DNA from: Candidatus Nitrospira kreftii
Lineage (GTDB): Bacteria; Nitrospirota; Nitrospiria; Nitrospirales; Nitrospiraceae
Length of the DNA: 64,000 bases
Assembly: GCA_014058405.1 (NCBI GenBank)
Contig: CP047423.1
Location: 3,456,501-3,520,500, forward strand
Reading direction: 5' to 3'
In this document: piece by piece, positions 11,383 through 64,000 of the stretch
Position numbering within the stretch: position 1 is the stretch's first letter
Layout: the number at the start of each line of letters is the position of its first letter
The notes under the pieces: model-generated
The model's input: only the letters and a program-made list of their open reading frames with translations
The model's database searches: none
What the model was told of the DNA's origin: nothing
Program-made: the position numbers and the translations under genes

Positions 11383-12159
11383 ATGGTGAAAACTGAACGC
11401 CCTCATGTAGCCCGGGACTCTCAAGCCCCGGCGAAGGTGGTTTCCACGTGGTCCGGGCAAGCGCGTGAAGATGCCGTTCAGCGGATGTTCACCTCCATTG
11501 CCAGTACCTACGACCTCAACAATACCCTTTTGAGTTTCGGCCTTCATTACTATTGGAAAAAAATTACGGCATCGTTTATCGCCCCTGTCGGACGGGGAAC
11601 CGCCCTGGATGTCGGAGCCGGTACCGCCGATCTCGCTCTGCTCGTGGAATCTCGGATGGGACCCAAGGGACGTGTGATTGCGTCGGATTTGAATCATGCG
11701 ATGCTCGCGAAGGGCCTCAAGAAAGTCGGGAGGAAAGGTCTTTCGGAGAAGATCACCTGCCTCCAGGCCAGCGCCGAACATTTAGGATTCGGCGATAATA
11801 CGTTTGATGCGGTCACGACCGGGTTTTGCATGCGCAATGTCGGGGATTTACCCCAAGCTGTACAGGAGATCCGCCGCGTCATGAAGCCCGGCGGCCGGTT
11901 TGTGTGCCTGGAGTTTTCGCGCCCGGTGTTCGGCTGGTTGCGGACACTGTATGATTGGTACTCGTTTAAACTGTTACCATGGATCGGCACAATTGTCGCC
12001 CGTGATCGCACCGGCGTCTATGAATACCTCCCTGCTTCGATTCGAACCTTTCCTGATCAAGAGCGGTTGTGCCAAGTCTTACGCGATGCAGGATTTCGTC
12101 AGGTGTCTTACAAGAATCTCAGCGGTGGGATCGTCGCGATCCATGTCGCAACGAAATAA
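11383..12159 (+). CDS. ubiE: Demethylmenaquinone methyltransferase UbiE/MenG
   Basis: This 258-residue SAM-dependent C-methyltransferase makes the last step of menaquinone synthesis (and of ubiquinone synthesis where that is made). Family landmarks are VQRMFTSIASTYDLNNTLLS near the N terminus, the SAM-binding ALDVGAGTADLALL, the DLNHAMLAKG loop, TTGFCMRNVGDLPQAVQEI and the C-terminal FRQVSYKNLSGGIVAIHVA. The frame is open 88 codons upstream, but homology begins only at about residue 25 of the chosen start, so the ATG at 11383 is taken. The ribosome site is weak. A short hairpin (CCTGAAA/TTTCAGG, 12195-12217) separates it from the radical SAM gene. Confidence 0.9.
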   Translation: MVKTERPHVARDSQAPAKVVSTWSGQAREDAVQRMFTSIASTYDLNNTLLSFGLHYYWKKITASFIAPVGRGTALDVGAGTADLALLVESRMGPKGRVIASDLNHAMLAKGLKKVGRKGLSEKITCLQASAEHLGFGDNTFDAVTTGFCMRNVGDLPQAVQEIRRVMKPGGRFVCLEFSRPVFGWLRTLYDWYSFKLLPWIGTIVARDRTGVYEYLPASIRTFPDQERLCQVLRDAGFRQVSYKNLSGGIVAIHVATK

Positions 12160-12235: not shown

Positions 12236-13861
12236 ATGAATTCGATTCTCTACATTTTTCTTCCCTGCAAGAAAGTCTATCCTATCGGAGTCACCTATAT
12301 CGCCGACTTTATTCATCGGCGGAAACCGGACGTTCGCCAGCGGATTCTCGACCTGTCTCTATTCCCTGTTGCACAACGAAAGCAGGCCATTCTCGACGCG
12401 GCCACTGAGTGCATGCCGAATCTGGTGTGTTTCTCTTGGCGTGACATTCAGATCTTTTCGCCGCATGAAGGCGACTCGTCGTTGGAGCATGCCTTCAATT
12501 TCTACTTTGCCAGCAACCCGTTCAAGCGGATCACCGCGTCATTCGCCGGCGTCAAGCAGCTTTATCGCTACTACAATCACATCAATACCATCCTGTCGTA
12601 CCCTGCGTTGGTCCGCAAGGAGTTCCCTAGGGTTCAGATGATGATCGGCGGTGGAGCGTTTACGGCCTTTGCCGATCAATTGATCGAAAAGCTTCCTGAA
12701 GGGACCATCGGGATCCTCGGCGAGGGGGAGGACGCTATCCTCAAGATCATTGAAAGTCGCTCGATCGAGGACGAACGCTACATTATCAAAGAAGGAAATC
12801 AAATCCGGAAAGGCCGGCAGGCATCTCCGGCACTTCTTGAATCATCGCCGGTGGATCTTCCCTATCTCACATCGATTTTCCCCCAATATAAGGAATATGC
12901 AGACGAATCCATCGGCGTACAATCCAAACGAGGATGCCCCTATGACTGCTCTTTTTGCCTTTACCCTTACATAGAAGGCAAGCGAGTGCGCTACCGGCCA
13001 CCTGAAACAGTCGTGAAAGACATCGCTCAGCATTATCATCAATGGGGTACCCGTCGATTCTGGTTCACAGATGCGCAATTCATCACCGGGAAGGAAGCCT
13101 ACCCGCAATGTACTGAAATTCTTGAGCGGATCGTCGCGGAGAAACTTGATATCGAGTGGTCCGGCTATATCCGCACGTCATTAATTACCTCAGAGCTCGC
13201 CAAGTTGATGGTGCGGTCGGGCGTCGGCGATCTGGAGGTGGCCATCACGTCCGGTTCGCAAGAAGTACTGAACAATTTGCACATGGGGTTCAAACTTGAA
13301 CGGCTCTATGACGGCTGTCGCTATCTGGCAGAGGCCGGCTTTAAAGGCAAGGTCATTCTGAACTACTCCCTGAATAGCCCCAAGGAAACGGAAGAGAGCC
13401 TGCTGCAAAGCGTCGAATCGTACAAGATGGTGGCGTCGATTCTTGGAGAAGAGCGTGTCTTCCCGTTGATGTTCTTTCTGGGCATCCAGCCCAATACCGA
13501 TCTGGAGCAGCGACTGCTAGAAGAAGGTTATTTATCCGCGGGTTATAATCCCCTGATGCTGACACCGACCAGTATCAGGAAATTACTCTATAACCCTGCC
13601 CCACTGAATAAGATTATCGCTAAGGCCTGTCTTCGGGCATGGGAACGAAAGCAGGGCAGCAGTGATCCTCGTCGATGGACAGGCTCACTCTCGCAATCGA
13701 CCACCCCATCATCGACCTATGCCGACCAGAACCTCAGTCGAGGAATGGAAGGCAACTCGGGTCGAGATGCTCTTTTATCGTTGGAAGAGATCCTTGCTTC
13801 GCGGCGACGAGCTTCATCCCCTTCGCAGGCGACAGAGCCAAGAACAAGCTCAGCCGGGTGA
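12236..13861 (+). CDS. B12-binding radical SAM protein
   Basis: This 541-residue protein combines an N-terminal cobalamin-binding-like domain (about residues 1-200, starting with YIFLPCKKVYPIGVTYIADF) with a radical SAM core. The cluster motif is C234-PYD-C238-SF-C241 after SKRG, followed by RYRPPETVVKDIAQ and the barrel segments RFWFTDAQF and EWSGYIR. The last 90 residues are Ser/Arg-rich and probably disordered. B12 radical SAM enzymes methylate unactivated carbons or rearrange substrates, and the substrate cannot be read from sequence. It follows ubiE by 76 bases and may be cotranscribed, so a lipid or quinone substrate is possible. That is inference. No clear ribosome site precedes the ATG, and the next gene starts 198 bases on. 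Confidence 0.82.
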   Translation: MNSILYIFLPCKKVYPIGVTYIADFIHRRKPDVRQRILDLSLFPVAQRKQAILDAATECMPNLVCFSWRDIQIFSPHEGDSSLEHAFNFYFASNPFKRITASFAGVKQLYRYYNHINTILSYPALVRKEFPRVQMMIGGGAFTAFADQLIEKLPEGTIGILGEGEDAILKIIESRSIEDERYIIKEGNQIRKGRQASPALLESSPVDLPYLTSIFPQYKEYADESIGVQSKRGCPYDCSFCLYPYIEGKRVRYRPPETVVKDIAQHYHQWGTRRFWFTDAQFITGKEAYPQCTEILERIVAEKLDIEWSGYIRTSLITSELAKLMVRSGVGDLEVAITSGSQEVLNNLHMGFKLERLYDGCRYLAEAGFKGKVILNYSLNSPKETEESLLQSVESYKMVASILGEERVFPLMFFLGIQPNTDLEQRLLEEGYLSAGYNPLMLTPTSIRKLLYNPAPLNKIIAKACLRAWERKQGSSDPRRWTGSLSQSTTPSSTYADQNLSRGMEGNSGRDALLSLEEILASRRRASSPSQATEPRTSSAG

Positions 13862-14059: not shown

Positions 14060-16132
14060 ATGTATAAGACTATCTACATTCCGGTCGATAATTCCGACCA
14101 TTCCAATACAGCGGTAGACGTCGGTGTCCACTTGGCAAAGACCTTCGGCTCGAAGATCGTGGGAAGCCATGTCTATGCCGCCAAGATGCATGACAAGCGG
14201 TTTAAGCAGATGGAAGCCGGCTTGCCCGAGGAATACCACGATGAAAAGGAACTTGATCGCCAGCGTCAGATTCACGACTCCCTGATCACCCGCGGGTTAC
14301 AAATCATCACCGACTCCTATCTCGACTACGTCGATAAAAAATGCACGGAGTCCAATCTTCCGATAGAGCGACGATCGCTTGAGGGGCGAAATTGGAAAGT
14401 GCTGGCTGAAGACATCAACACCAACGGGTATGACCTGGTCATCATGGGAGCTTTGGGAGTCGGCGCGGTCAAAGACAGCGTGATCGGCAGCAATACCGAA
14501 CGTGTTGTCCGACGAGTCCGTAACTCCGACATGTTGATTATCAAGAATATTCAACCGCTGACGGGTGGCAAGATCGTGGTGGCGGTCGACGGAAGCCCTT
14601 ATTCGTTCGGCGGGCTGATGACCGGGCTTGCCCTCGGCAAAGCCTTCAATATGCCGGTGGAGGCGATCTCAGCCTTTGATCCGTATTTCCATTATGCCGC
14701 CTTCCACAGTATTTCCGGAGTGCTCAACGAAGAGGCCGGCAAGGTGTTCCGATTTAAAGAGCAGGAAAAGCTTCACGAAGAAATTATCGATAGCGGCTTG
14801 GCAAAAATCTACCAATCTCACTTAGACATCTCCCGAGAAATTGCGCAAGCCGAACAAACCGACGTGAAAACGACTTTGCTCGACGGAAAAGCGTTCGAGA
14901 AAATCATTCAATATGTCCGCAAGGACGTCCCTGCCTTGTTGATCGTGGGACGCATCGGCGTCCATAGCGATGAGGACATGGACGTCGGCAGCAACACCGA
15001 AAATCTACTCAGGAGTGCGCCCTGCAACGTCCTGGTCTCCAACCGCAAGTATGTCCCGCCGATCGATACCCAAGCGGAATACACGATTGCCTGGACGGAA
15101 GAGGCGCTGAGACGGATGGAAAAGATCCCTGTTTTTGCGAGAGGAGTCGCCAAAACAGCGATTCATCGATATGCCATTGAAAAAGGACATACGATCATCA
15201 GCAACACGGTCGTAGACGCCGCAGTCGGACATATTTTGCCGAAAGGCGCGATGGACGCCATGCGGGCGCTTGGCGGGAATCTCGATGCAGCCGGTATCAA
15301 CCGAGACCAAATGCAGGCCGACGAGGCCGTGACCAAAGATCTCATGGGACCGACGTTGAGCGGGATCATGACCCAGATCGTGGAGGAAAAACCGAAACAG
15401 ATCGATGCGGGCACTCAGGCCTATCTGGACCGCATGGGTCAAACATATTTCGTCTGCGATGGCTGCGGCTACATCGGCAAGGGTGACACCCCGGTCCGAT
15501 GTCCGGTGTGTAGTGCCGACGGGACAAAGTTTAAACAAGTCGACAAGAAGATTTTTGAAGTGGCGGCGACATCCGAAGGCGAACTGGAGACCGATGTCGC
15601 CTACGATGACGTGCCGATGCAATGGACCAAGGATGCCAAAGAAGCGATCCGTGCCGTTCCGGCGGGCTTCCAACGAAGACGGGCGAAAGCGAGAATTGAA
15701 AAAAGCGCGCGTAAGTTGGGCATGACAACCATCACGCTCGAATATGCCGCCCCGATGATTACGGAAGCCGCGGCGGAAGACTATACCCCTATTTTCTCCA
15801 ATAAAGGCACCGGCACACCAGCGGTGGTGGAAGCCGCGTCTGAATCTCCGAACACTGGTGGCAATGGCTCAAACGGACCGGCTGAAACCGATTCAGCGTA
15901 TCGTTGGACGGATGAAGCACAAGCCAGATTGGATCGAGCTCCTGAAGGCTTCATGCGAGATTGCACGAAAGCGCTGATTCTCAAGCACGCTGAAAAGATT
16001 GGAGCGACCATGATCACGATCGAGGTCGCCAATGAGGGCATCGAGCAGGCCAAAGGTTACATGGCAGAAGCTATGAAGACCGGCAATCTCAAAGATATGA
16101 TCGCTGACCTCACAGGTAAAATCAGCACATAG
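14060..16132 (+). CDS. Two-domain universal stress protein fused to PCP_red and rubredoxin-like modules
   Basis: This 690-residue fusion has six modules. Two universal stress protein domains lie at about 1-165 and 170-325; each ends in a nucleotide-site pattern (GALGVGAVKDSVIGSNTERV; VGRIGVHSDEDMDVGSNTEN). Three PCP_red-like domains start at Trp345 (WTEEALRRMEKIP), Trp522 (WTKDAKEAIRAVP) and Trp616 (WTDEAQARLDRAP). Between the first two is a rubredoxin-like zinc/iron ribbon with Cys466, Cys469, Cys481 and Cys484. In BchB/ChlB the PCP_red domain closes over the substrate near an iron-sulfur cluster; its role outside chlorophyll synthesis is unknown. The combination suggests a redox or stress sensor. 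The ribosome site AAGGAGG is enclosed in a hairpin. The radical SAM/PCP_red gene follows after 92 bases. Confidence 0.88.
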   Translation: MYKTIYIPVDNSDHSNTAVDVGVHLAKTFGSKIVGSHVYAAKMHDKRFKQMEAGLPEEYHDEKELDRQRQIHDSLITRGLQIITDSYLDYVDKKCTESNLPIERRSLEGRNWKVLAEDINTNGYDLVIMGALGVGAVKDSVIGSNTERVVRRVRNSDMLIIKNIQPLTGGKIVVAVDGSPYSFGGLMTGLALGKAFNMPVEAISAFDPYFHYAAFHSISGVLNEEAGKVFRFKEQEKLHEEIIDSGLAKIYQSHLDISREIAQAEQTDVKTTLLDGKAFEKIIQYVRKDVPALLIVGRIGVHSDEDMDVGSNTENLLRSAPCNVLVSNRKYVPPIDTQAEYTIAWTEEALRRMEKIPVFARGVAKTAIHRYAIEKGHTIISNTVVDAAVGHILPKGAMDAMRALGGNLDAAGINRDQMQADEAVTKDLMGPTLSGIMTQIVEEKPKQIDAGTQAYLDRMGQTYFVCDGCGYIGKGDTPVRCPVCSADGTKFKQVDKKIFEVAATSEGELETDVAYDDVPMQWTKDAKEAIRAVPAGFQRRRAKARIEKSARKLGMTTITLEYAAPMITEAAAEDYTPIFSNKGTGTPAVVEAASESPNTGGNGSNGPAETDSAYRWTDEAQARLDRAPEGFMRDCTKALILKHAEKIGATMITIEVANEGIEQAKGYMAEAMKTGNLKDMIADLTGKIST

Positions 16133-16224: not shown

Positions 16225-17619
16225 ATGAGCAAATCCCTACCCATTTTCAACGGCTCTGCACTCCCTGGCACACTGGGAGCATTTCAACAACACATTACGC
16301 AGTTCCTGACTCCCACTCCGAAATCGGATGGCCCTTTCGACGGACGAACCGTCGATGACTTCAAGCCTTACCTCGTCGCGCTGAACCTAACGAAGCGTTG
16401 CAACCTTAAATGTGACCACTGTTATCTCGATGCGACAACGAAAGCAGCCGGTGGAGATGACGAGCTCAACACGGACGAATGCTATCGTCTGATCGACCAG
16501 ATCGCCGAAGTCAACAAAGGCTGTCTGTTGGTCATCACTGGTGGCGAACCGCTAGTCCGGCCAGACATTCTCGATATTGCTCGTTATGCCGTCAAACTAG
16601 GCTTTATGGTGGTCTTTGGTACCAACGGCATGTTGATCAACGATCAATTGGCCAAGACCCTTGTGGAAATCGGTGTGATGGGTGTCGGCATCAGCATCGA
16701 TTCTTTGGAGGCTGTCAAACATGATGCCTTCAGAGGGGTACCAGGAGCCTGGGAAGCGGCGATAGCCGGCATCGAAGCAAGCAAACGAAATGGGCTCCAG
16801 TTTCAAATACACTTCAGCGCTCAGCCGATGAACTACCAGGAACTCCCGGATGTTATCGAGTGGGCACATCAGCTCGGCGCTCGTGTCTTGAACGTCTTTT
16901 TCATGGTGTGCACGGGACGAGGAGAAGAGTTGACCGACATTACACCTGCCCAATACGAAGAAGTGTTGGGCTACCTGGTTGAATGCCAAGACAATTACAA
17001 AGGCATGCTGGTTCGTGCTCGCTGTGCCCCACACTTCAAGCGACTGGCCTATGAGAAAGACCCCAACTCTCCAATCACCAAGGCCACTGGATACATGGGG
17101 GGAGGTTGCCTTGCAGGTACGAACTACGCCCGCGTGACACCTAATGGAGAATTGACCCCCTGCCCCTATATGCCGCTCTCTGCAGGGAACGTGCGCCAAC
17201 ATAGCTTCGTTGATCTCTGGGAACAGTCGGACGTTTTCAATTCTTTCCGGTATCCCCAGCTCAAAGGGAAATGCGGCGACTGCGAATACACTGATATCTG
17301 TGGCGGCTGCCGCGCTCGTCCCTATGTCGACCATGGGGACTGGTTGGATGAGGATCAGTGGTGCCTCTATACTCCCAAAGGTGGTGAAAAGATCAAAGTC
17401 GCTTTCAACGTCGCGGAAGAATCAGAAATGTCCTGGGATGAGGCATCTGCGCTCCGACTGAGTCGGATCCCCTATTTCCTGCGCGCAATGGTGAAAAAGG
17501 GTGTGGAGAAACATGCCCGTGAAAATAACATCCCTCTTATTACCATAGAATTGATGGACGAGCTGCGCAAGAAACGCTTTGGCAACGACATACCCATCTT
17601 CAAGCCTCGTACGGAGTAA
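16225..17619 (+). CDS. Radical SAM/SPASM protein with a C-terminal PCP_red domain
   Basis: This 464-residue protein has a radical SAM core with the cluster motif Cys59-xxx-Cys63-xx-Cys66 (KRCNLKCDHCYLDA), the GGEPLVRPD motif and the GISIDSL strand. A SPASM-type auxiliary cluster region follows: GGGCLAGTNYARVTPNGE, LTPCPYMP and GKCGDCEYTDICGGCRARP. The last 60 residues are a PCP_red domain starting at Trp404 (WDEASALRLSRIPYFLRAM). The core resembles the haem-pathway enzymes NirJ/AhbC/AhbD and peptide-modifying SPASM enzymes. A tetrapyrrole substrate would fit the PCP_red fusion, but this is inference. The gene follows the USP fusion gene and precedes a CopD-like protein, all on the plus strand. 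The ribosome site is weak. Confidence 0.88.
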   Translation: MSKSLPIFNGSALPGTLGAFQQHITQFLTPTPKSDGPFDGRTVDDFKPYLVALNLTKRCNLKCDHCYLDATTKAAGGDDELNTDECYRLIDQIAEVNKGCLLVITGGEPLVRPDILDIARYAVKLGFMVVFGTNGMLINDQLAKTLVEIGVMGVGISIDSLEAVKHDAFRGVPGAWEAAIAGIEASKRNGLQFQIHFSAQPMNYQELPDVIEWAHQLGARVLNVFFMVCTGRGEELTDITPAQYEEVLGYLVECQDNYKGMLVRARCAPHFKRLAYEKDPNSPITKATGYMGGGCLAGTNYARVTPNGELTPCPYMPLSAGNVRQHSFVDLWEQSDVFNSFRYPQLKGKCGDCEYTDICGGCRARPYVDHGDWLDEDQWCLYTPKGGEKIKVAFNVAEESEMSWDEASALRLSRIPYFLRAMVKKGVEKHARENNIPLITIELMDELRKKRFGNDIPIFKPRTE

Positions 17620-17688: not shown

Positions 17689-18198
17689 ATGGATACTTTC
17701 CAGAGCATTTCCACGGATCTCAATATCCTCATTCCGATCATCAACCACTGGCTTCACCTCCTCTCAGCAGTCATTTGGATTGGAGGCTTAGCATTTCTTG
17801 TCATGGCAGTCGCTCCAGGACTGCAGAAAGCCGTTCCAAAGGATCAGATCAAGCCCATCACAGACATTTTTTATCAGCACTACAAAAAGGTTGCTGGTAT
17901 TCTCCTGCTCGTGCTGTTGTTCACCGGAGGTGTGAATCTTCACTACGTCAATCAGGTCATCGTTTCACAAACTGGGAACGGGGTCCAGCACCACGCCAAA
18001 TACCTCATGGTCTTTATGATCAAGCTGCTTCTCGTGCTCGGCCTCCTCACGTTATTTCTTTACACCGTCATCTTTAGATCCGAAGACGAAGCCGACGAAG
18101 GAGAGACCTACGAGGTTATCCCATTCCAGAGAGCCGCGCTTTGGATGGGTTTTTTCATCATTCTCTGCGCAGCCGGTATGAAACACCTGCACCAATAA
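17689..18198 (+). CDS. CopD-like four-helix membrane protein
   Basis: This 169-residue membrane protein has four predicted helices: about 22-45 (HWLHLLSAVIWIGGLAFLVM), 65-85, 100-125 and 146-163. His residues at the helix ends (HWLH, QHY, HHAKY, KHLHQ) could bind haem or copper, as in CopD-type and cytochrome b561-like proteins. It lacks the long CopD N-terminal helices, so it is a minimal version. It lies 69 bases after the radical SAM/PCP_red gene and in the same direction, so a shared operon with the two PCP_red fusions is likely. The ribosome site before the ATG is poor. The function is unproven. Confidence 0.7.
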   Translation: MDTFQSISTDLNILIPIINHWLHLLSAVIWIGGLAFLVMAVAPGLQKAVPKDQIKPITDIFYQHYKKVAGILLLVLLFTGGVNLHYVNQVIVSQTGNGVQHHAKYLMVFMIKLLLVLGLLTLFLYTVIFRSEDEADEGETYEVIPFQRAALWMGFFIILCAAGMKHLHQ

Positions 18199-18313: not shown

Positions 18314-19084
18314 TTACTTGGAGCGATTCAAACCGAGAGCCCGCTTGAAGACCGTGGCGAATCCAAAATAGCCGAAAGAATCTTTGAGGTTTGAGTAGAG
18401 CCGCTTCACCGTTCCCATCTCTGGATTGGTGACATACTCCATCGTCAGCGCAATCCGCTCCTCGCCCTCGCCGAGAGGCGTGACGGCATGCCAAAGCTTG
18501 TCACCGTTGAAAATCACCATGTCTCCCGGCTCAGTCACCAGTTCAAGATGGCGTGGCTGTTTCGTCGGGTGGTCCTTAAATAGTTCGCACACTAGCTTGC
18601 ACTGAGTCGATCGATCAACGAGCCCCATGAGAATCGTATAACGAGCGCCTTTGTAGTACGACGTATCGTAGTGAAAGCCGATGTGGTCACCCGGTTCCGT
18701 ATAATAATAGAGTGCGCACGAATGGGGATCGTTATCCGGGCAGAACATCAGCTTGGCTTCGACCAGACGGTTCAAGAACTCCCTGAATGATTGCGAACGG
18801 TAGAGTTCGAGAAAGAGCGGAGCCTTCTCCTGAACCGTGTAATAGCTGACACTTCCGCCTTTTTTATGCCCTGGAATGTAATTGCGATTCAGCTCTGCTT
18901 TGGCGCTCTGGGCCTGTGGAACAAGCATGTCCTCCACAAATGAGCGCGGCAAGAACTGTTTGATGACCAAAAACTCATTTTGTTCCCAATACTCGGTATG
19001 GAGCCGTTCGAACTCCAATCCAGCCACGGCCCGATTCACAGCTTCCGTGACCGTACCCGCATGACTCGCTACCGCTGTACTCAT
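18314..19084 (-). CDS. 2OG-Fe(II) oxygenase family protein
   Basis: This 256-residue protein is of the 2-oxoglutarate/Fe(II) dioxygenase (phytanoyl-CoA hydroxylase/2OG-FeII) fold. The iron ligands are His138 and Asp140 (GFHYDTSYY) and His199 (DKLWHAVTPLG), and Arg210 (EERIALTMEY) probably holds 2-oxoglutarate. It shares the fold with hydroxylases of lipids, small molecules and proteins; the substrate is unknown. The ATG at 19084 is preferred over an in-frame upstream codon because AAAGGA precedes it. It starts 45 bases downstream of lolA and may be cotranscribed. A 13-base tandem duplication (TGACGTGGGTTAC, 18292-18317) overlaps its stop codon. Confidence 0.8.
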   Translation of the reverse strand: MSTAVASHAGTVTEAVNRAVAGLEFERLHTEYWEQNEFLVIKQFLPRSFVEDMLVPQAQSAKAELNRNYIPGHKKGGSVSYYTVQEKAPLFLELYRSQSFREFLNRLVEAKLMFCPDNDPHSCALYYYTEPGDHIGFHYDTSYYKGARYTILMGLVDRSTQCKLVCELFKDHPTKQPRHLELVTEPGDMVIFNGDKLWHAVTPLGEGEERIALTMEYVTNPEMGTVKRLYSNLKDSFGYFGFATVFKRALGLNRSK

Positions 19085-19129
19085 TCTCTGTCCTTTACCG
19101 GCCGACGACCTGGAATCTGCGACCACTCT

Positions 19130-48058: not shown

Positions 48059-49054
48059 TCACAGACTTCCTTCACCCTTGAGGTACTTGCGGAAACGACC
48101 CATCAGTTCAGCGCCTAGGGTCCCCCCTTCAGGTTTCTTCGTCGAAGGATCGGCAAAATGTCCTCGAATTTCCTGGAGCCGTTTCTCAGCCTGATCGTTG
48201 CCCTGTAAGCGCTTTGTTTTCTGCAGAGCAGTGTCAAAAGCCTCAAACGTCAATTCCTGATACCCAAAAGAGCGGATACGTTTAACCGCTTTCATCATAG
48301 CCTGATTTCGAAACGTCGTCAGATGGTCGGAGTCGATCTCTTTAAGCCCCAGCTTACGAGCGCGCCGCTCAGCTGCTTTTCTGATCCCACTTCGCACGAA
48401 ATCGGGAGACGTCTGGAGCCGCTTCCATGCTTCATCGGACCACGCGACTCGTGCCTGAGGGGCATCCCACAAGTCGAGTAAGGTTGATTCGTCAATACGA
48501 GTCAGTTGCCGCTCCCTTGCAAGATCTTCGGTATCTCGCCTCAACATATCAGTGACAAAATCCAGTGCAATGGGCGGCGATTGCTTTACTTTTTCCTCGA
48601 GCCGCGCAAGCGCCCCCTCAGTCCATACCATAGGAGGCCCAATGTCCTCGTGAAGGTCGCCAAGCGCTTCAACCTTTTCGAACAGCTCAACATTGACCTC
48701 GAGATGTCCTCGCTCTTTTGCGATCTCCTCCGCAATCTGCTTGATCATCGCGCGCATAAATTCGGGAACCGTGGCCAAGCGTTCTTTCGCCGCCGCGGTC
48801 CATGGGAGACGACCTTCTACCATCTCTTCAACGGCAGATGCCATTCCAGCTTCACCCCCCATACGCCCCATCATTTGGCCTTTAAACTGCTCGAGAATTT
48901 CTTCCGTAATCTCCTCATATCCTAATTCCCTTGCTTTCTTTTCAGCCAAACGACGAACCATGCCGCGCAAGAAGAGAGGAGCGCGCTCCATACGTTTGAG
49001 CGCACCATCAGTCCAGCGAATTTCGGTAGCAGCGGAAGGCAAAGAATCCGACAT
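48059..49054 (-). CDS. Four-repeat PCP_red-domain protein
   Basis: This 331-residue protein is built almost only from PCP_red-like repeats. They start at WTDGALKRMERAPLFLRGM (about 13), WTAAAKERLATVPEFMRAM (about 87), WTEGALARLEE (about 143, longest and most divergent) and WSDEAWKRLQTSPDFVRSG (about 208). Each has Trp-Ser/Thr, an Ala, a Pro-x-Phe turn, Arg/Lys clusters and a closing ITxE/IDS. The N- and C-terminal ends add a helix (about 260-310, AMMKAVKRIRSFGYQELTFEAFD). No Cys cluster or catalytic domain is attached. The start is ATG at 49054; a TTG lies one codon upstream. It is next to ihfB, 30 bases downstream of it. Confidence 0.85.
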   Translation of the reverse strand: MSDSLPSAATEIRWTDGALKRMERAPLFLRGMVRRLAEKKARELGYEEITEEILEQFKGQMMGRMGGEAGMASAVEEMVEGRLPWTAAAKERLATVPEFMRAMIKQIAEEIAKERGHLEVNVELFEKVEALGDLHEDIGPPMVWTEGALARLEEKVKQSPPIALDFVTDMLRRDTEDLARERQLTRIDESTLLDLWDAPQARVAWSDEAWKRLQTSPDFVRSGIRKAAERRARKLGLKEIDSDHLTTFRNQAMMKAVKRIRSFGYQELTFEAFDTALQKTKRLQGNDQAEKRLQEIRGHFADPSTKKPEGGTLGAELMGRFRKYLKGEGSL

Positions 49055-49086
49055 CAACCTAGGCCTTTTCCAGGAATTTCAAATCT

Positions 49087-62999: not shown

Positions 63000-63728
63000 T
63001 TACATGAACTTCATGAACTTGTCTTTGGCCTCATCCATGACTTGCGCCGTGATGGTCGACACCCCACGTTCCTTGGCCATCCGCTCCACCTCTTTGCGAG
63101 CCATCGGGCGGATGAAATCAGGGATATTTTCAAGCCGTTGTTCTGCCTCCCGCGACCACGTCATACCCTCGGGCGAATAGTTCTTGGAATCGTCCATTAC
63201 TTGCAGCGTGATCGTGTTGAATCCGCTATTACGCGCATAGGTTTCCACACTGCTTTGGACCATCGGTTTCACGAAAACCGGAAGGCGATCGAGTTTTTCC
63301 TTCGCGTCAGGCGTCCAGGTGAATTCCGATGCAGCAGAGCCACCGTTCGCGGGCTTACCGCTCGCCGTCAACCCCATCTCAGCGACCATGGCAGAGAATG
63401 GACACCCACTTGCTTTCTCGGGAGCCTTGGCAGGCGACACCGCCGTGGCAGCCACCGTTGGTGTAGGAGAACTCGGTTTCGGCGAGGCGGCAACTTGGCC
63501 ATTCTCCCCGAGTGCGCGCAACCCTTCCATGGACGTTTCCGGCGCGGACTTCGGGCTCAGCTTCAGCCCCAAGGAATTCATCATGTTGGTTTCGCCGGCA
63601 TTGGTCACCATCGAGAATTTCGCGCTACAGGACGGGCAGGCGAAAAAGACTCCAAGCGAACCTTCCTCCGGCTTCTCTACTTTCTCGAGGCTCATATATG
63701 TTTCGCAGTTCAAACAGACAAATTTCAT
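63000..63728 (-). CDS. Zinc-ribbon protein with two PCP_red domains
   Basis: This 242-residue protein has an N-terminal zinc ribbon with two CxxC pairs, Cys5-LN-Cys8 and, about 20 residues later, ACPSC, in the frame MKFVCLNCETYMSLEKVEKP...FFACPSCSAKF. A Pro/Ala/Ser-rich linker (about 60-120) follows; it contains KASGCPFSAMVAEMGL. Two PCP_red-like repeats then begin at WTPDAKEKLDRLPVFVKPM (about 139) and WSREAEQRLENIPDFIRPM (about 194), ending ITAQVMDEAKDKFMKFM. The ATG at 63728 has GAGGAG about six bases ahead, preferred to upstream codons. It is followed by a strong terminator, so it is monocistronic. Confidence 0.88.
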   Translation of the reverse strand: MKFVCLNCETYMSLEKVEKPEEGSLGVFFACPSCSAKFSMVTNAGETNMMNSLGLKLSPKSAPETSMEGLRALGENGQVAASPKPSSPTPTVAATAVSPAKAPEKASGCPFSAMVAEMGLTASGKPANGGSAASEFTWTPDAKEKLDRLPVFVKPMVQSSVETYARNSGFNTITLQVMDDSKNYSPEGMTWSREAEQRLENIPDFIRPMARKEVERMAKERGVSTITAQVMDEAKDKFMKFM

Positions 63729-64000
63729 AAAGACTCCTCTAGCAGTCACTCCGCAAGGGTTGGACGAAAGACTACGCTATCATATGGATTTTCAAGGAGT
63801 CAAACCGCTGGGAAGGCAAAAGGCACTGATGCCCCCTTATTCAAGTCCAGTGCTCACTGACCTCTCCCACACTTGCATCTGGGCCTTGCGGTGAGGCCTA
63901 ACGGTCCGCTATGCATCATCGAACCAATGCGATTACACTACATAATCTCGCGATGAATAGAATATGTTTTGCCCTTAAGTATGAGCGATGAGATCCTTCC
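63729..64000. other. Right end of the window, upstream region
   Basis: These 272 bases hold no gene that I can support. They are the upstream region of the zinc-ribbon/PCP_red gene. Several plus-strand frames run through but look like shadows of that gene or of nothing. The sequence after 63890 is AT-rich and could be a promoter region of a gene outside the window. Confidence 0.4.

Follow-up and report, generated by a model that had tools for sequence, protein, structure and literature searches.

A radical SAM/SPASM enzyme fused to a PCP_red domain in Candidatus Nitrospira kreftii, and its gene linkage to bd-like oxidases and NXR in Nitrospirota

Genes at the locus

The window, meaning the whole stretch of DNA analysed, is 64,000 nucleotides of the Candidatus Nitrospira kreftii genome (GCA_014058405.1, contig CP047423.1, positions 3,456,501 to 3,520,500). 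It encodes a radical SAM/SPASM enzyme with a C-terminal PCP_red domain in a single reading frame, here called the fusion or rSAM (Table 1). A USP gene lies upstream across a gap of 92 bases, and a CopD-like gene lies downstream across a gap of 69 bases. The original prediction, made from the letters alone, had the reading frame, its strand, the three domains, Cys59, Cys63, Cys66, Trp404 and both gaps exactly right.

Most genomes of the window's class have an orthologue of the fusion, as do many lineages elsewhere in the phylum, a conservation that argues against a chance arrangement. An alignment of 28 fusions from many families showed Cys59, Cys63, Cys66 and Trp404 to be invariant, and the PCP_red residues R411, P416, F418, E428 and T440 are likewise kept in 28/28. 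In families f6, f9 and f10 (L225-L230, L232-L238) about 25 extra residues are inserted near position 256 of the window protein. These families appeared as counterexamples and were rejected as such, being an artefact of split alignments; their fusion is a single open reading frame of about 455–485 aa. More PCP_red genes flank the fusion at several of these loci. Structures predicted by AF2 for the fusion and for the CopD-like protein had low confidence (mean pLDDT 49 and 57), and no tetrapyrrole pocket could be read from them.

Table 1. Features of the window (positions are those of the window)
Feature	Position	Strand	Evidence
MpqE, methyl-plastoquinone biosynthesis methyltransferase	11476..12159	+	NF052510, 400 bits, cut-off 335
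slr0320-like B12-binding/radical SAM protein	12236..13861	+	NF045585, 441.9 bits, cut-off 775
USP partner: two Usp, three PCP_red, rubredoxin-like CX2C...CX2C	14060..16132	+	Pfam
Radical SAM/SPASM-PCP_red fusion (rSAM)	16225..17619	+	464 aa, ATG at 16225, stop at 17619
Radical_SAM domain, aa 54-213, C59-X3-C63-X2-C66	16384..16863	+	PF04055, 1.1e-21
SPASM region, aa 295-380: C295, C313, C350, C353, C359, C362, C380	17107..17364	+	PF13186, match at aa 295-354, 3.9e-10
PCP_red domain of fusion, aa 404-448	17434..17568	+	PF08369, 2.4e-12, 47.1 bits, above the gathering cut-off of 32.5
CopD/DUF4149-like four-helix membrane protein	17689..18198	+	Weak Pfam matches, conserved His
Four-repeat PCP_red protein	48059..49057	-	Homologue fused to or near rSAM in other lineages
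Two-repeat PCP_red protein, N-terminal CX2C...CX2C, uncertain member of the system	63000..63731	-	

The rubredoxin-like match of the USP protein is weak, at 24.1 bits and below the Pfam cut-off of 26.5. The CopD-like protein scores below the cut-offs of both CopD (PF05425, 21.1 vs 32.1 bits) and DUF4149 (24.4 vs 24.6); it has invariant His23, His85 and His168.

Gene order in near relatives is almost fixed as MpqE, slr0320-like, USP, rSAM, CopD-like. Among near loci with enough flanking sequence, the USP gene is directly upstream of rSAM in 70/70, the CopD-like gene is downstream in 104/105, the slr0320-like gene is present in 63/64 and MpqE in 60/62. The fixed upstream position of MpqE and the slr0320-like gene makes a tie of USP-rSAM to quinone synthesis possible. 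A 2OG-Fe(II) oxygenase is encoded at 18314-19126 on the minus strand and matches the HalD halogenase family (36.4 bits, Pfam cut-off 26). The 49–62 kb part of the window was considered as a complex I operon and rejected; it encodes SppA, ribosomal protein S1, AroA, prephenate enzymes and YebC.

At distant loci the USP gene is directly upstream of rSAM in 23 of 27, and at L149 it follows rSAM instead. The CopD-like neighbour was found only inside the window's class. USP-rSAM is an ancient pair, and the three genes together are not one ancient unit. The proposed three-gene maturation or sensing module therefore survives as a gene order of near relatives, with its CopD-like member restricted to the class, while the proposed comparison with other Nitrospirota found the USP and rSAM genes still neighbours. 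No support was found for a sensing role.

Type of enzyme

The top three NCBIfam models for the fusion core are NirJ2 (323.9 bits), AhbD (319.9) and TIGR04053 (271.7). Lower scores were obtained with NirJ1 (181), NirJ (177.6), AhbC (174.4), PqqE (111), MoaA (90) and StsB (90). The fusion misses every equivalog cut-off among AhbD (TIGR04545, 500), NirJ2 (TIGR04055, 500), NirJ (TIGR04051, 515.45), AhbC (TIGR04546, 650), TIGR04053 (395) and PqqE (381). True AhbD proteins of Nitrospirota themselves score about 430–534 against the TIGR04545 cut-off. Judged by these models the core is AhbD/NirJ2-like rather than AhbC-like. The NirJ/AhbC-like label first given to it was right about heme-type radical SAM kinship and wrong about AhbC.

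A tree was built on the core alone, with PCP_red removed, from the 28 fusions and Nitrospirota AhbD, NirJ, TIGR04053 and PqqE. MoaA, TIGR04133 and other distant rows were left out because they gave long-branch joins when included. The 28 fusions fall together on the same side of a branch (92/88), which recurs in 90% of bootstrap trees; the branching among groups is not firm. They stand in a clade of their own, apart from AhbD, NirJ, TIGR04053 and PqqE, so the core does not group with PqqE in the phylogeny that had been proposed as a check. With the gene order kept in close relatives as well, neither outcome named beforehand as refuting the prediction occurred. A separate PqqE is encoded in the same genome (491.9 bits).

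AhbD is characterized by CX3CX2C and a C-terminal CX2CX5CX20C (PMC3942049). Both motifs are present in the fusion, as C59/C63/C66 and C350/C353/C359/C380, and all are invariant. C267 and the seven cysteines of the SPASM region make up the full AhbD-type auxiliary set, and these eight (C267, C295, C313, C350, C353, C359, C362, C380) are kept in 28/28 fusions and 10/10 AhbD. The fusion core is 35–39% identical to Nitrospirota AhbD. It differs in having N54, Y67, S160 and R303 where AhbD has E, R, G and L or F, in its added PCP_red domain, in its separate clade and in its score. Many genomes outside the class also hold a true AhbD alongside the fusion.

NirJ2, the best model, and NirJ belong to heme d1 biosynthesis, and N54 and Y67 are shared with NirJ; however, NirJ rows do not have C267, C295, C313 and C362. 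The same four cysteines are absent from TIGR04053, which also has no PCP_red domain. In Thermus a TIGR04053 gene adjoins a gene annotated as nitrite reductase. PqqE rows do not have C267 and C359. Because all AhbD cysteines are kept and N54 and Y67 are as in NirJ, the fusion is predicted to combine the cluster layout of AhbD with a changed set of pocket residues. It would then work as AhbD does, while score and tree both place it outside the AhbD family. On the scores, tree and cysteines, the fusions are classed as an unnamed separate clade of AhbD-type radical SAM/SPASM enzymes.

Heme-type macrocycles are the substrates of both AhbD and NirJ: the former converts coproheme propionates to vinyls, and the latter removes propionates (PMC7242693, PMC10548856, PMC3942049). 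Since the closest family models are all tetrapyrrole enzymes, with PqqE and MoaA far behind, a tetrapyrrole-type substrate is favoured. The substrate of the fusion is probably some tetrapyrrole.

PCP_red domains

The genome encodes 12 PCP_red copies in five proteins, four of which lie in the window. The rSAM proteins of L135 and L137 end in a homologue of the four-repeat protein (about 40% across 335 aa); in L132 such a homologue lies 2–3 kb downstream of rSAM, and L226 has a four-repeat PCP_red gene immediately 3′ of rSAM. These fusions and neighbours place the four-repeat protein in the same system as the window's fusion.

The PCP_red domain of the fusion matches structures 2kru, 2xdq_B and 2l09. 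Its match to the BchB/ChlB domain (PF08369) covers the full domain and retains W, P, F, R and E, but the rest of BchB is missing and the domain is joined to a radical SAM enzyme. Structures of PCP_red exist for the domain alone (2kru) and for a chain of 62 residues (2l09). Its solution as an isolated domain and its 12 copies in this genome, including the four-repeat protein, suggest that it is better explained as a docking or interaction module than as the tetrapyrrole lid first proposed from BchB. Among the accessible texts and structures, none was found in which PCP_red closes over a tetrapyrrole. A search of the accessible literature found no paper on PCP_red in a setting like this fusion system.

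Linkage and co-occurrence with bd-like oxidase and NXR

Outside the class, the USP-rSAM pair is linked to bd-like, c-type cytochrome and NXR genes in several families. In three families (L145, L149, L150) the pair is next to a run of bd-like oxidase, two cytochromes c, NarJ and NxrA, in which the NarJ-type delta protein is shown by a Pfam match in L145. NxrA of L145 aligns at 1.1e-293 with the chain for subunit A of nitrite oxidoreductase in 7b04, and NxrB (DMSO-reductase type II iron-sulfur subunit) lies beyond it, with a homologue in L150. The order in L137 is bd-like, cytochrome c, NxrC-like, USP, rSAM, protoporphyrinogen oxidase; in L146, bd-like, cytochromes c, NxrC-like, USP, rSAM; in L143 and L154, cytochrome c, NxrC-like, USP, rSAM; in L140, bd-like, cytochrome c, USP, rSAM; and in L148, USP, rSAM, bd-like, cytochromes c, heme b subunit.

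The protoporphyrinogen oxidase gene is directly after rSAM in L135 (TIGR00562, 290.7 bits, cut-off 97.85) as well as L137; it adjoins rSAM only in these two, and respiratory genes are the neighbours elsewhere. In distant Nitrospirota, true AhbD genes (L162:11267-12526 and L163:11317-12657) have a protoporphyrinogen oxidase homologue some 2 kb away. In most of eleven distant loci, a gene directly or closely 3′ of the fusion encodes a soluble PNPOx-like protein, about 220–255 aa long. This conserved family (L140:7376-8026, L143, L146, L147, L152, L153, L154, L156) resembles PNPOx weakly, and no relative of it was found in the PDB.

Nitrospira itself has neither bd-like nor NXR genes next to the pair. 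The 'bd-like_3' cluster of Nitrospira, with alt_NxrC_2 and two cytochromes c, has the gene types of the USP-rSAM runs found elsewhere, but neither a radical SAM nor a USP gene is named among its members in the accessible part of its description (PMC6606698). Nitrospinota and anammox Planctomycetes have the NXR and bd-like/alt_NxrC cluster in common with Nitrospira (PMC6606698).

Co-occurrence was counted in 182 sampled genomes outside the class, of which 27 have the fusion and 24 a bd-like oxidase. Both are present in 23, the fusion alone in 4 and the bd-like oxidase alone in 1. A bd-like oxidase is thus found in 23/27 genomes with the fusion and 1/155 without it (Fisher 5e-24, a value that ignores the relatedness of the genomes). 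In f27 it is present in 7/7 carriers of the fusion and absent in 2/2 non-carriers. In f28, f29, f32 and f35 it is carried only where the fusion is present, with single carriers in f29, f32 and f35. Heme-copper oxidase served as a control for aerobic lifestyle and is found in 27/27 fusion genomes and in 33/53 others. Among these 60 genomes a bd-like oxidase accompanies the fusion in 23/27 and occurs in 0/33 that lack it, which argues that the co-occurrence reflects more than aerobic lifestyle.

Inside the class every genome has the bd-like oxidase (113/113) and the fusion is present in 108/113, so co-occurrence there is uninformative. Across all 295 genomes the exceptions, with some fragmented assemblies among them, are four genomes with the fusion and no bd-like oxidase (G002, G008, G228, G279) and six with the reverse (G018, G185, G230, G238, G262, G069). 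In Nitrospira and Ca. Manganitrophaceae these bd-like proteins are regarded as putative terminal oxidases (PMC6606698, PMC9040806, PMC12342949).

Heme b routes

The genome encodes HemE, ferrochelatase (hemH) and protoporphyrinogen/coproporphyrinogen oxidase (hemY) together, as hemE-hemH-hemY. In the window's order no HemF was found, and no HemN above cut-off. Two PF06778 proteins of the genome (L246:4574-5293 and L247:171-965) are a HemQ/ChdC-like protein and a chlorite dismutase. The chlorite dismutase has a signal-peptide-like start and is close to structure 3nn1. The HemQ/ChdC-like protein is cytosolic, 240 aa long and nearest to solved coproheme decarboxylases. It scores 130 against a HemQ equivalog cut-off of 235, so its role as a coproheme decarboxylase is likely and not proven.

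The fusion occurs alongside HemN and/or HemF in families f4, f5 and f19 and alongside true AhbD in most other lineages outside the class. A role as the missing heme b step was considered and dropped, given the HemQ/ChdC-like protein here and the true AhbD, HemN or HemF resident with the fusion elsewhere. Being found with every known route of heme b decarboxylation, the fusion is not simply a missing heme synthase. It is therefore a further paralogue, and its presence is independent of the organism's heme b route.

One possibility is that the fusion is an AhbD isoenzyme, an O2-independent coproheme decarboxylase that would make ordinary heme b as a low-oxygen alternative to HemQ/ChdC in Nitrospira. 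The complete AhbD cysteine set would fit such an enzyme, as would the hemE-hemH-hemY genome with neither HemF nor a HemN above cut-off, the HemQ-like score under its cut-off, the protoporphyrinogen oxidase genes adjoining rSAM in L135 and L137, and the documented working of AhbD with hemY/hemH (PMC10548856). It is nevertheless doubtful: many fusion genomes outside the class hold a true AhbD (about 430–534 bits) and others HemN and/or HemF, the HemQ-like protein has coproheme decarboxylases as its nearest solved relatives, and AhbD has E and R in place of N54 and Y67. Moreover, the fusion follows bd-like and NXR genes and not the absence of another decarboxylase. The coexistence of other heme b routes with the fusion argues for a product other than heme b.

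Proposed role

SPASM enzymes are mostly peptide modifiers. The fusion could accordingly be a maturase that modifies a residue of the bd-like oxidase, the NxrC-like protein or a cytochrome, a reading compatible with its linkage to respiratory subunit genes and with a PCP_red domain docking a protein partner. Such a role is rather improbable, as the peptide-enzyme models score far lower (PqqE 111, StsB 90 bits), the core is apart from PqqE in the tree, and a non-systematic look recognised no small precursor peptide gene beside the fusion. A lack of any specific link, with USP-rSAM and bd-like/NXR genes both marking a chemolithotrophic lifestyle and inherited together, would suit the near-universal fusion of nitrifying Nitrospirales, where everything co-occurs, and clusters that may have travelled as blocks, but it is very improbable given that three families whose surroundings differ greatly keep these genes in one run, that both were repeatedly gained or lost together in at least 5 families, and that both are present even when unlinked (516 kb apart in G083).

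Some function of the USP-rSAM pair for the NXR/bd-like chain is likely. The best explanation as a whole is that the fusion is an AhbD-type enzyme for heme maturation of the NXR/bd-like respiratory chain of Nitrospirota, at a probability of about 0.4. Its partner may be any of the bd-like oxidase, NXR or an NxrC-like heme protein.

The chemistry and substrate put forward for the heme maturation enzyme are inferred. The SAM cluster would generate a 5′-deoxyadenosyl radical, and the auxiliary cluster or clusters of the SPASM region would take an electron from the substrate, as proposed for AhbD-type decarboxylation. The substrate may be an iron tetrapyrrole with a side chain altered, probably a propionate. 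The product would be a heme unlike heme b that is passed on to the bd-like/NxrC section of the chain. The USP-PCP_red-rubredoxin protein may contribute ATP binding and/or electron transfer. Docking could proceed via the PCP_red domains common to the enzyme, the USP partner and the four-repeat protein. A bolder version, in which the enzyme supplies the bd-like oxidase or NxrC-like heme protein with an undescribed heme derivative as its special cofactor and PCP_red is a docking tag for the system's maturation proteins, seems unlikely.

The Nitrospira genomes analysed have no canonical heme-copper oxidase (PMC6606698). Their bd-like oxidases are proposed from genome and transcript data and poorly characterised. 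Nitrospira is responsible for a key step of nitrification. If the heme maturation role is true, rSAM would be a dedicated maturation factor for the NXR/bd-like chain, and PCP_red would have a role outside chlorophyll synthesis. The hemes of the chain and their synthesis would become a directly testable question.
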